Source: Acidobacteriota bacterium (lineage in GTDB: Bacteria; Acidobacteriota; Vicinamibacteria; Vicinamibacterales; UBA2999). Taken from it: DNA of 64,000 nucleotides. The position numbers and the translations under genes are program-made. Location of the stretch: positions 22,501 through 86,500 of the forward strand of contig JAKFYH010000009.1 of assembly GCA_021730945.1 (NCBI GenBank). Reading direction: 5' to 3'. Under the pieces are notes generated by a model, which searched no databases, was not told the origin of the DNA, and was given only the letters and a program-made list of their open reading frames with translations. This document shows positions 5,988 to 45,854 of the stretch, piece by piece; within the stretch, counting starts at the first letter, position 1; every line of letters begins with the position of its first letter.

Positions 5988-7028
5988 TCACTTTGCCGCC
6001 ATCAGGGGCTTGACGTGGTTGGCAATCTGTTCGTGGGTCGCGAACCACACCCCGGGCTTGCTCTTGATGTATTGGACGAGTTTCTCGAGCATGGCGGTCC
6101 GGGATCGGTGTCCCATCAGGTGTGGATGCATGGTCAACAGGAACAGCCCGCCTTCGCCGTACGCGACATCAAACTCGGACTGGAACACCTCGAAGACATC
6201 CCCCACGGAGGGGTTTGAGCCGTCGGCGTTGCTGCCGAAGTAGGGTGCATCGTCCAGGATGCGTTCGATCGGCAGCTCAACGACTCCGGTGGGCGCGCCA
6301 TCCAGCAGGAGTTCGTAGGCATCGTCGCTGGCCATCAGGCTGCTGTCGTAGAGGAAGCCGGCCGCCTTCACCTGGCCCATGGTCCAGGCGCTGAACTTCC
6401 ACGATGGCGCGCGGTAGCCGACCGGCCGTTTGCCAGTCATCTTGGTCAGGGTGTCGATTGAGAGGTCGAGGAGGCGCTGCTCCTCGTGCTCGTCGTTCAG
6501 CAGCGGCAGGCGTTCGTGAATCCACCCATGGACACCGATTTCGTGGGCCACAGATGACACAGATGACGGAGTTACCGGGGCCGCAGATGACGCAGACGAC
6601 ACCGATGACGCAGATCCGGTGCCCATGATCTGCTGAATCATCTCCGGATGCAGGACGGCGCTGGCGGCCGGGATGAAGAACGAGGCCGGAACGCCCTGGC
6701 GGTCCAGCATTCGCAGGATGCGTGGCAGGCCGTCGATCGCGCCGTATTCGCCGCGCGACAGAATTTCGGAGTCCAGGTTTCCGGTCGAGAGGGTGGCGGT
6801 GGCATTGTCGACGTCGAACGACAGCCCGACGGCGACGCGGGCGCCGTTGGGCCAGGCTCCCTTCAGGCGCCGGCCGGCGCTGACGTGAAACATCTGGCTT
6901 TTGAGCTGATTCACGGACAGTTGGGTGCCAGGCAGTGGGTGAAGCCGGGTGATGTCGTTGGCGGCATGGGGAGGCGCTGGTGCGCACGCGGCCAGCAGGA
7001 TGAGCGCCGCGATCGGCAATCGGGTCAT
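5988..7028 (-). CDS. Polysaccharide deacetylase (NodB-like) lipoprotein with in-frame repeat insertion
   Basis: 346 residues with a lipoprotein-like signal (LLAACAP). NodB motifs are present: FDVDN (about 71-75) and HEIGVHGWIHE (about 162-172) with the metal-binding histidines, RAPSWKFS, and a late LTMHPHLMGH. It probably removes N- or O-acetyl groups from an envelope glycan or is a PuuE-like amidohydrolase. Residues about 139-161 are a Ser/Ala/Val-rich stretch encoded by a CAGATGAC-type DNA repeat (about 6549-6625), inserted just before the HEIG motif without breaking the frame. A TAGACT hexamer 5 nt before the ATG suggests a leaderless mRNA. Confidence 0.85.
   Translation of the reverse strand: MTRLPIAALILLAACAPAPPHAANDITRLHPLPGTQLSVNQLKSQMFHVSAGRRLKGAWPNGARVAVGLSFDVDNATATLSTGNLDSEILSRGEYGAIDGLPRILRMLDRQGVPASFFIPAASAVLHPEMIQQIMGTGSASSVSSASSAAPVTPSSVSSVAHEIGVHGWIHERLPLLNDEHEEQRLLDLSIDTLTKMTGKRPVGYRAPSWKFSAWTMGQVKAAGFLYDSSLMASDDAYELLLDGAPTGVVELPIERILDDAPYFGSNADGSNPSVGDVFEVFQSEFDVAYGEGGLFLLTMHPHLMGHRSRTAMLEKLVQYIKSKPGVWFATHEQIANHVKPLMAAK
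6549..6625. repeat. CAGATGAC dispersed repeat inside the deacetylase gene
   Basis: Repeated units CAGATGACACAGATGACG, then CCGCAGATGACGCAGACGAC and CGATGACGCAGATCC. The same unit occurs in intergenic copies at about 7427-7471 and 45822-45854. Here it lies inside a coding region in frame and encodes a low-complexity Ser/Ala/Val loop. Confidence 0.75.
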
Positions 7029-7426: not shown

Positions 7427-7471
7427 GCCGCAGATGCCACAGCCGCAGATTACACGGATGACGCAGAGGGG
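7427..7471. repeat. CAGATGAC-type dispersed repeat after padR stop codon
   Basis: Begins directly after the TAG stop of the PadR gene (GCCGCAGATGCC, CCGCAGATTACACGGATGAC) and fills most of the padR-permease gap. Related to the copies at about 6549-6625 and 45822-45854; the latter also starts with GCCGCAGATG directly after a TAG stop. Confidence 0.7.
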
Positions 7472-19579: not shown

Positions 19580-19588
19580 TGGGCGAGG

Positions 19589-19640
19589 AGAGTTGAAAGT
19601 TGAAACTTGAAAGTTGAAAGTGTCAGTTGAGAGTTACAGT
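19589..19640. repeat. AGTTGAAA satellite-like repeat
   Basis: Runs of GAGAGTTGAAAGTTGAAAC and TTGAAAGTTGAAAG separate the divergent methyltransferase and sigma-factor genes. A reverse-complement copy lies at 24031-24064. Confidence 0.75.
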
Positions 19641-24030: not shown

Positions 24031-24064
24031 CCTCAACTTTCAACTTTCAACTTTCAACTCTCCA
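24031..24064. repeat. AGTTGAAA repeat (reverse-complement copy)
   Basis: CTCAACTTTCAACTTTCAAC followed by TTTCAACTC, directly after the thioesterase stop. Reverse complement of the repeat at 19589-19640. Confidence 0.75.
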
Positions 24065-29191: not shown

Positions 29192-31258
29192 ATGCTCAAG
29201 ATCAAATTTCGTTTCATCGTGACGACCGTTCTGACGGTGCTGCTTGGCGCCGCCGGAACCGCGTCGGCTCCTCAGGACAAACTCGATCGCGCACTGCGTG
29301 AAGGCCTTGGGCTTGGCCAGGCGCAGCGCGTTCTCGTCAAGGCCCAGCCGGGTGCCGACGGTAGGGTGCGCGAGTTGTTGGCGAGCCGTGGGGCCAGCAT
29401 CGAAGCTGAGTTGCGGCTGGTTGGCGCGATGACCGTCACGCTGTCGGCCAGCGATTTGATTGCGGTGTGCGAACAGAGCCCGGCCGTGCGCTCGTGCTCG
29501 ATCGACGGCGAGGTCACGTCGCTCAACACCGACTTCAACCGCGTGCAGAGCCGATTCAATCGCGGCCAGCGGAAGGGGCCGGCGACCTCCGCCGCCTCGG
29601 CGAGCACGCTGCTCGGTACTCTGGGTCTGCCGTACGGCGGTCCCGGCCAGGGCACGACCGGCGGAAAGGGCGTCACGGTTGCCCTCATCGACTCAGGTAT
29701 TGACGCCGGGTCCTTTGGCAGCCGCGTCACCGGGTTTTACGACTTCACGAAGGGCAACCATAGCCCGGCAGCGTCGGCTCCGCTCGACGAGTATGGTCAC
29801 GGCACGCACCTGGCCGGCCTGATCGGCGGCAGTCAGAAGATGCTCGACGCGGCGTATCAAGGCGTCGCGCCGGGCGTGAACTTCGTCGCGCTGAGGGTGC
29901 TCGATCACGAAGGCAAGGGTTTCACCACCGACGTGATTGCCGCGATCGAGTTCGCGATCCAGAACAAGGCTGCGCTGGGCATCGACATTATCAACCTGTC
30001 GCTCGGCCACCCCATCTACGCTCCCGCCGCCCAGGACCTGCTGGTGCAGGCGGTCGAGCAGGCGTCGAAGGCCGGCATCATCGTGGTCGTGTCGGCCGGA
30101 AACTACGGCGCCGACCCCAAGGGCAAGCTCGGCTACGCCGGCATCACCTCGCCCGGAAACGCTCCCTCGGCGATCACCGTTGGCGCGGTGGATCACAAGG
30201 GCACGGTGACCATTGCCGACAACCGGGTGGCCGACTACAGCTCGAGCGGCCCGACTTGGTACGACGGCCTCGCCAAGCCCGATGTGGTAGCGCCTGGCCA
30301 CTACCTGGCGTCGGAGCTGGCGGCCGCCAGCACACTCGCCACGACTCATCCGGAATTGGTCGTCACCGGTCCGTCGGGCAAGAAGTTCCTCCACCTTTCC
30401 GGCACTTCGCTGTCCACCGCGGTCACGACCGGCGTGGTGGCGTTGCTGAAGGAGAAGCGGCCCGACCTCACGCCGAACTTGTCGAAGGGCCTGGTGCAGT
30501 ACACCGCCATCCCCTTGAAGAATGATCGGGGCAGGGTTTACAGCCGGCTTCGCCAGGGCACCGGTGAAGTGAACGCTGAGGGCGCTCTGGTGTTGGCCGG
30601 CGCGATCAGGACCAACGTTCCGACGCTCGATCCGCTCGAGGCCAACGCGCAGGCCACGTACTGGGGCCCGAGTCGGAGGTCGTCACTGACTCAAGCGACG
30701 CAAATCGGGCGACGCACCTACGCGTGGGCCGGCAACATCGTCTGGGGCGACAACATCGTCTGGGGCGAATCGGTCCTCTATAACCTGCCGATCTGGGGCC
30801 TCAACATTGTGTGGGGCAACAACATCGTGTGGGGTGACAACATTGTCTGGGGCGACGGCCTGACAGTGGGTCACAACATCGTGTGGGGCAACAACATTGT
30901 CTGGGGCAATAACATCGTTTGGGGTAACCGGCTGGTCTGGGCGAAGAACATCGTCTGGGGCGAAGGCCTGATCGGCGTCAAGAAAGTGTCGTCGGCCGAC
31001 GACGAGAACATTGTCTGGGGCAACTTCGACGACGAGAACATCGTCTGGGGTAACTTCGACGACGAGAACATCGTCTGGGGCAACTTCGACGACGAGAATA
31101 TTGTCTGGGGTAACTTCAGCGACGACAACATCGTGTGGGGCAACCTGTTCGACGACAACATCGTGTGGGGCAACTCGGACGACAACATCGTTTGGGGCAA
31201 CGACGACAATATTGTCTGGGGCAACTCGGTCCTGACGAGCGGGAAGGGAGGCAAGTAA
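29192..31258 (+). CDS. Secreted subtilisin-like (S8) peptidase with C-terminal NIVWG repeats
   Basis: 688 residues. A signal peptide (TTVLTVLLGAAGTASA) and an I9-like propeptide (about 30-110) precede the S8 domain. The triad is Asp167 (VALIDSGID), His203 (YGHGTHLAG) and Ser406 (LSGTSLSTA), with oxyanion Asn304 (SAGNYG). The domain ends near residue 475. Residues 514-678 contain 17 exact NIVWG pentapeptides plus degenerate PIWG and LVWA copies. The first part is spaced as back-to-back NIVWG[ND] hexapeptides; the later part has acidic spacers (FDDE, SDD), giving 10-residue repeats. The tail may be a repetitive beta structure for surface attachment or assembly. Stop and the next start overlap as TAATG. 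Confidence 0.9.
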   Translation: MLKIKFRFIVTTVLTVLLGAAGTASAPQDKLDRALREGLGLGQAQRVLVKAQPGADGRVRELLASRGASIEAELRLVGAMTVTLSASDLIAVCEQSPAVRSCSIDGEVTSLNTDFNRVQSRFNRGQRKGPATSAASASTLLGTLGLPYGGPGQGTTGGKGVTVALIDSGIDAGSFGSRVTGFYDFTKGNHSPAASAPLDEYGHGTHLAGLIGGSQKMLDAAYQGVAPGVNFVALRVLDHEGKGFTTDVIAAIEFAIQNKAALGIDIINLSLGHPIYAPAAQDLLVQAVEQASKAGIIVVVSAGNYGADPKGKLGYAGITSPGNAPSAITVGAVDHKGTVTIADNRVADYSSSGPTWYDGLAKPDVVAPGHYLASELAAASTLATTHPELVVTGPSGKKFLHLSGTSLSTAVTTGVVALLKEKRPDLTPNLSKGLVQYTAIPLKNDRGRVYSRLRQGTGEVNAEGALVLAGAIRTNVPTLDPLEANAQATYWGPSRRSSLTQATQIGRRTYAWAGNIVWGDNIVWGESVLYNLPIWGLNIVWGNNIVWGDNIVWGDGLTVGHNIVWGNNIVWGNNIVWGNRLVWAKNIVWGEGLIGVKKVSSADDENIVWGNFDDENIVWGNFDDENIVWGNFDDENIVWGNFSDDNIVWGNLFDDNIVWGNSDDNIVWGNDDNIVWGNSVLTSGKGGK
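30731..31225 (+). repeat. Coding repeat array (NIVWG units)
   Basis: DNA units of the form AACAT(C/T)GT(C/G)TGGGG recur 17 times, with 18-bp period in the first half and 30-bp period around 31003-31130. Third-position differences between copies preserve the amino acids, pointing to selection on the protein. Confidence 0.85.
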
Positions 31259-45821: not shown

Positions 45822-45854
45822 GCCGCAGATGACGCAGACGACGCTTTAGGCGCC
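45822..45854. repeat. CAGATGAC-type repeat inside the BMC operon
   Basis: GCCGCAGATGACGCAGACGA immediately follows the BMC-H stop codon and fills the 33-bp gap to the first vertex protein. Matches the start of the copy at 7427. Confidence 0.7.

Follow-up and report, generated by a model that had tools for sequence, protein, structure and literature searches.

The 64-kb window, by which we mean the whole stretch of DNA analysed, contains a polysaccharide deacetylase gene that carries two modules of a repeat; further copies of the repeat lie between genes of the same window (Table 1). The deacetylase scores above cut-off against PF01522 in a profile search (8.4e-11) and matches PDB entry 3rxz both by sequence (1.1e-41) and by fold (4.8e-23); by profile and fold, it qualifies as a PuuE-like member of the NodB/CE4 family. 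Allantoinase proper (PuuE, TIGR03212) was rejected, since the protein scores far under the TIGR03212 cut-off. Residues D72, D74, H162, H167, H171, R206 and H301, which include the catalytic Asp and the metal-binding His motifs, are invariant across 30 sequences.

Table 1. Deacetylase, linker and repeat copies in the window
Feature	Window position	Strand	Basis
Polysaccharide deacetylase, NodB/PuuE-like, 346 aa, insert-bearing	5988..7028	-	ORF; PF01522; PDB 3rxz
27-residue linker, MIQQI to HEIGVHG	6546..6626	-	comparison with ~50 homologues
Repeat module 1, two 9-bp units and a diverged tail	6546..6576	+	sequence; exact 17-mer 6551-6567
Repeat module 2, four 9-bp units	6577..6617	+	sequence; 33 nt after module 1
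Intergenic copy, between PadR-like regulator and ABC-type permease gene	7427..7469	+	sequence
Short intergenic copy, directly after one small gene, 12 bp before the next	45824..45842	+	sequence

The deacetylase linker

Alignment with relatives shows a recent gain of the repeat in the deacetylase, a conclusion that rests on sequence comparison alone. Four same-genus homologues (77–91% identity) have 6 residues at the site of the linker (QSLTVG, QSAKLP, QAGAPG and QGTKQQ), and its length across ~50 homologues is 4–6 residues. The net gain is 21 residues, that is, 63 nt or 7 x 9, directly ahead of HEIGVHG. Repeat-derived DNA spans 6546-6617 on the plus strand and comprises the modules GGCCACAGATGACACAGATGACGGAGTTACC and GGGGCCGCAGATGACGCAGACGACACCGATGACGCAGATCC, with a period of 33 nt. 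A first-pass annotation of this DNA had proposed a repeat-derived insert of about 23 Ser/Ala/Val residues at 6549-6625; the insert is real, and its proposed size and position come near the measured values. The annotation had also held that its reading would fall if all homologues carried the segment, and none of the ~50 compared, from several families, does. That the segment is ancestral and was lost from all relatives is scarcely credible: we found no point in its support, and a single gain is far simpler.

The first-pass annotation was likewise right that the frame is kept and the metal-binding motif intact. An AlphaFold2 model built from 30 sequences (mean pLDDT 82, most of the core >90) matches the fold of 3rxz and of PuuE-type deacetylases. 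It places the insert in a loop between helix 128-135 and strand 163-167 (the HEIGVH strand), where residues ~137-161 have a pLDDT of ~50-60 and no secondary structure. The model thus supports the annotation's idea of an insert tolerated as a loop, predicted here to be disordered and to lie beside an intact metal-site motif.

A Ser-rich loop could also have expanded in place by slippage and only resemble the dispersed repeat. The insert does have a tandem structure, and short Ser/Ala loops arise locally: one genus (L032/L066) has ~5 extra residues at this linker without repeat DNA, as in the APSSSARV of L032. Even so, we consider a home-grown expansion very unlikely, because its exact 17-mers recur at dozens of unlinked sites, with none in the control, and because the consensus and the GGGGCC lead-in are the same as in intergenic modules.

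Dispersal and in-frame reading of the repeat

Counts across the genome show the repeat to be dispersed. In the window, the 8-mer CAGATGAC alone carries no significance (4 seen vs 2.2 expected), and the 17-mer CAGATGACNCAGATGAC is enriched (6 vs 0.56 expected; 0/100 shuffles). In the genome-wide count that the annotation had proposed as a check, 515 matches occur at <=3 mismatches vs 16 for the reversed pattern; the exact 17-mer occurs 159 times, its reversed control never. At <=2 mismatches, this genome (G000) has 349 matches, G036 has 264 and five other relatives have 50-86, the remaining counts being mostly background.

Array locations were surveyed by unbiased sampling of 823 kb of the genome, using a simple codon-usage gene caller made for this analysis. 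Of the 28 arrays, 20 lie between genes, 3 mostly so, 2 at gene starts and 3 within genes; one of the last is a single 17-mer, taken as chance, as were single in-gene 17-mers with <=3 mismatches (e.g. TDDTDSA). Although ~92% of the surveyed sequence was called coding, the arrays thus lie mainly between genes (23/28), where the annotation had put them. The consensus is (CCAGGG)CC[GA]CAGATGAC[AG]CAGATGAC[AG]CAGAT, and arrays run in tandem with periods of 23-75 bp. Ten array pairs face inward, 1 faces outward and 2 share an orientation; the inward inverted pairs are 14-134 bp apart, with a typical spacer of ~100 bp. These inverted pairs, together with single copies and locally amplified tandem arrays, show the repeat to be REPIN-like.

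Other repeats are present in the window. A short-period repeat of (AGTTGAA)n type forms a 31-nt inverted pair at 19587-19617 and 24033-24063, 4.4 kb apart, and 18- and 30-nt tandem repeats lie in the coding sequence of one gene (30709-31226).

Ten internal in-gene arrays were found in the 823 kb and the stretches around the remaining exact copies. Besides the deacetylase, they lie in STT3, a COX1-COX3 linker, DUF1015 and BatA/VWA, which were compared with same-genus proteins, as was the N-terminus of a phosphoribosyltransferase (PRTase). The others, identified by family match, are HupE/UreJ, NuoEF-like, Fdh-alpha-like, ImuB-like (a weak match) and gluconate dehydrogenase subunit 3, where the array lies near the C-terminus. 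The claim that coding sequence can accept the repeat is strengthened accordingly, to at least nine further genes with internal in-frame arrays, four of them compared with homologues.

The internal arrays show a strong frame bias. Five of the six frames of the 9-bp unit are open, and 10/10 internal arrays read the same one of these, S-S-A/V (SSA/SSV); by simple arithmetic, assuming independence and equal frames, the chance of a single frame is ~5e-7. Unit spacings are multiples of 3 in 17/17 cases inside genes vs 36/109 outside. The other frames are confined to gene ends and to short matches of doubtful value. The PRTase (G000:C12:113271) and an HlyD-type protein (G000:C8:20683) take their start codon and N-terminus, MTQMTQ, from the repeat, and relatives of the PRTase lack this N-terminus; an acidic C-terminus is another gene-end reading. 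A VICVICVIC signal peptide possibly comes from the repeat as well, by inference. At L029 (G000:C8:129218-129270), a signal peptide (MRHRPALLARSLRVICVICVICGS...) may owe its hydrophobic core to a repeat copy.

Several of these sites vary between species. The ~51-aa DUF1015 insert is missing from same-genus proteins, and two same-genus DUF1015 proteins have AEGRRQKAE-type tandem residues at its position. The COX1-COX3 linker of G005 and G007 holds a different, GAT-type variant (TCACAGCCGCAGATT), and units closely similar to TCACAGCCGCAGATT flank a GxxExxY gene in G005. At the STT3 site, G002 has RSASSVSSAALL. Different species thus fill these same variable linkers with repeats of their own. For BatA, the difference is slight and the alignment not secure. 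A ParA-like ATPase (L199:3969-4940) has an insert of DDTDNA plus repeated ADSQPN.

Repeat-rich sequence confuses assemblers, this draft genome is in 67 contigs, and the homologues come largely from metagenome-assembled genomes, which leaves an assembly artefact to be weighed. We regard one as extremely unlikely: errors would not behave as the arrays do, keeping frame in ten genes with every spacing a multiple of 3, and related inserts recur at these STT3 and COX linkers in independent species.

GxxExxY genes and the proposed source of the repeat

The repeat is one member of a broader class that flanks GxxExxY genes, which the first-pass annotation had missed. The only GxxExxY gene found in G000 (C7:74724-75062; L124) scores over the profile cut-off at 113 bits and 121 bits (PF13366/TIGR04256) and has CAGATGAC-type repeats on both sides, a 6-unit, 58-bp CAGATGAC array on one and a single inverted copy on the other. 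An GCAATCCC octamer run adjoins the same gene. Across the phylum, 50/66 GxxExxY (PF13366) genes have inward-inverted iterated flanks, against 1/84 ordinary small genes, 0/30 locus midpoints and 0/21 RAYT genes in the same motif test. The motif cores were picked after an alignment-based test, partly on the same loci, and the controls weigh more than the exact fraction. Free of motif assumptions, the alignment-based test also shows the association (34/47 GxxExxY genes at score >=40 vs 2/84); it scores RAYT flanks high too, as REPs would, but none has the GxxExxY flank motifs. No flank was recognised for 10/69 GxxExxY genes.

The unit ends have the form AACC(RCRRAD NNA)n, with types GAT, GAG, AAG, AAT and AAA. 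Inverted terminal pairs, a criterion for MITEs, are present both in G000 and around GxxExxY genes. Among seven non-Acidobacteriota plasmid genes, inverted ends are clear by alignment in Bacteroides, Gemmatirosa and Bernardetia and short or unclear in the other four. The Bacteroides finegoldii plasmid gene (L354) has near-perfect 30-bp inverted ends, TTCACCACAGAGGACGCAGAGGACACGGAG, and sits between radA and a FAD-dependent protein gene. A fatty-acid synthesis operon on a Sphingomonas parapaucimobilis plasmid (L357) has a GxxExxY gene between its fabD and fabG; a CACGCGAAG-type end was seen only to the left of it. The GxxExxY gene does not appear to be phage-borne, because none was found in viral contigs.

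Repeat and protein share a history. On the GxxExxY protein tree, repeat type changes 10 times vs 29.4 when shuffled (0/200 shuffles as low) and host family 24 times, which shows that the type of repeat tracks the protein phylogeny. The GAT type forms one clade of 16 from several host families (SH-aLRT 82), a support that is only moderate in a tree of 118 columns with many unresolved forks. Paralogues of different clades within one genome have different flank types (G005, G008, G001, G036, G002). GAT repeats are more abundant in genomes with a GAT-type GxxExxY gene (p 4e-6, flanks counted in); the AAG trend is weaker (p 0.002) and has exceptions. Against the proposed source stands G013, with 50 GAT matches but no GAT-flanked GxxExxY gene found, though it also has an AAG-type gene and ~470 AAG copies. 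One orthologous intergenic site holds a full unit in G002 and G005, a gene-less AAG inverted pair in G001 and GAT repeats only in G007; no unit was found there in G003, G004, G006 or G008, and G006 has a short GCCACGGAG/CTCTGTGGC palindrome. Also at this site, long inner palindromes (~130 bp) lie between the iterated ends and the GxxExxY gene in G005 and G002 (L343, L349).

What moves the repeat is less certain. The first-pass annotation had called it mobile, and for this the support is indirect: the repeat is dispersed, was gained recently at orthologous sites and forms inverted pairs. Neither a transposition event nor an excision was seen. No target-site duplication was apparent by eye at the sites read, and there was no near-identical empty site for comparison. 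RAYT (PF01797) was rejected as mobiliser: 45/60 genomes have 1-12 copies, yet 0/21 loci have the repeat within 500 bp. An apparently active GxxExxY unit in G150, seen as >30 near-identical fragments, was also rejected: it is IS5-like, an element with CTAG at each end that carries GxxExxY as passenger. This element (L324-L340) is ~1.4 kb long and has a truncated GxxExxY unit inside.

The protein itself has features of a nuclease. G, E, Y, D73 and E83 are invariant and K85 is >90% conserved. Its structure model (pLDDT 91) finds Cas4, MGME1, LHK-Exo and other PD-(D/E)XK nucleases as best Foldseek hits, weakly (best E 1e-3); a sequence search of solved structures gave no match. Conserved D/E/K residues and modelled fold meet the description of a PD-(D/E)XK protein, the fold matches being weak and nuclease activity inferred.

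It remains a substantial possibility, though one we would not favour, that the repeat was inserted as described while GxxExxY is a mere passenger. Recombination, slippage or another transposase would then spread the repeat, in which GxxExxY genes merely settle. G000 has a single GxxExxY gene against very many repeat loci, G022 and G033 (both drafts, 92% completeness) have many AAG repeats without a detected GxxExxY gene, no target-site duplication was seen, and the G150 unit does ride in a multicopy IS5-like element. A passenger would not, however, readily account for flank types that track the protein tree rather than the host and differ between same-genome paralogues of different clades, nor for an almost invariant inward orientation.

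Our preferred explanation, which we think probable, is a recent in-frame insertion of two modules from a dispersed repeat, kept as a flexible loop, with the repeat coming from GxxExxY units and GxxExxY as its likely spreader. Two tandem modules entered the deacetylase DNA in frame at a variable loop, as the comparison with homologues shows. The insert would have been kept because its length is a multiple of three and because, on this strand and in this frame, it encodes a flexible Ser/Ala/Val loop; the bias is observed, selection for such a loop inferred. The source would be the inverted, 9-bp-iterated ends of GxxExxY-carrying units, for which association and shared phylogeny are the evidence. 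GxxExxY, with its predicted PD-(D/E)XK fold, would be the likeliest factor to cut at these ends and spread them, an inference without direct demonstration, as is the mobility of the unit. Modules may then have multiplied in place by replication slippage or unequal exchange, again by inference.

More broadly, and as nearly an even call, GxxExxY and its inward 9-bp-iterated ends may be very small mobile elements in several phyla. On this reading the PD-(D/E)XK protein would mobilise the ends of its own unit and leave gene-less copies around the genome, much as RAYTs do with REPINs, and the scattered ends of this lineage would repeatedly enter genes in frame and give linkers, start codons and perhaps signal peptides.

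Comparison with known systems

The literature searched, from which most subscription journals were missing, reports neither a function nor flanking repeats for GxxExxY, and a search for the repeat sequences gave nothing relevant; within those limits, the unit is a possible mobile element without an earlier description. The findings outline a route from intergenic repeat to protein linker in which selection appears to keep the flexible frame. They also give a testable role to a large, widely annotated family of unknown function, and may account for repeats common in Acidobacteriota genomes, CACGAAGGA and CACAGAGRC among them.

That an intergenic repeat can enter genes in frame is already known from Rickettsia palindromic elements (RPEs), intergenic repeats that also lie in frame within unrelated conserved genes (PMC10969869), and our finding is a variation on that. 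The repeat meets the same criterion of in-frame insertion into unrelated genes. RPEs, however, are palindromic, ~150 bp long and encode one conserved peptide, whereas here ~30-bp modules of direct 9-bp iteration amplify in tandem, yield Ser/Ala/Val linkers and have a candidate nuclease partner.

REPINs are extragenic inverted pairs ~100 bp apart, and their cognate RAYT proteins form lineages each with its own repeat type (PMC3116915). Inverted doublets with a short spacer (10 inward, 1 outward), mostly extragenic (23/28 arrays), recall them, but the unit here is a direct 9-bp iteration and not the short palindrome of a REP. The partner is GxxExxY (PD-(D/E)XK) rather than an HUH tyrosine transposase, and RAYT genes in these genomes lack such flanks (0/21 within 500 bp, 0/21 in inverted form). 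MITEs are likewise short non-autonomous units with inverted ends, some having a fuller gene-bearing version; here no target-site duplication was seen by eye at the sites read, and the ends, built of iterated units, grow in tandem. Minisatellites (VNTRs) share the local tandem arrays, with a 23-75 bp period, and differ in that the core of our repeat is dispersed genome-wide in both orientations and in inverted pairs. The GxxExxY proteins themselves are clear members of their family (TIGR04256, PF13366 PDDEXK_3) by model score and conserve its nuclease-like residues; what sets them apart from the family as reported in the literature searched is the repeat that flanks them.
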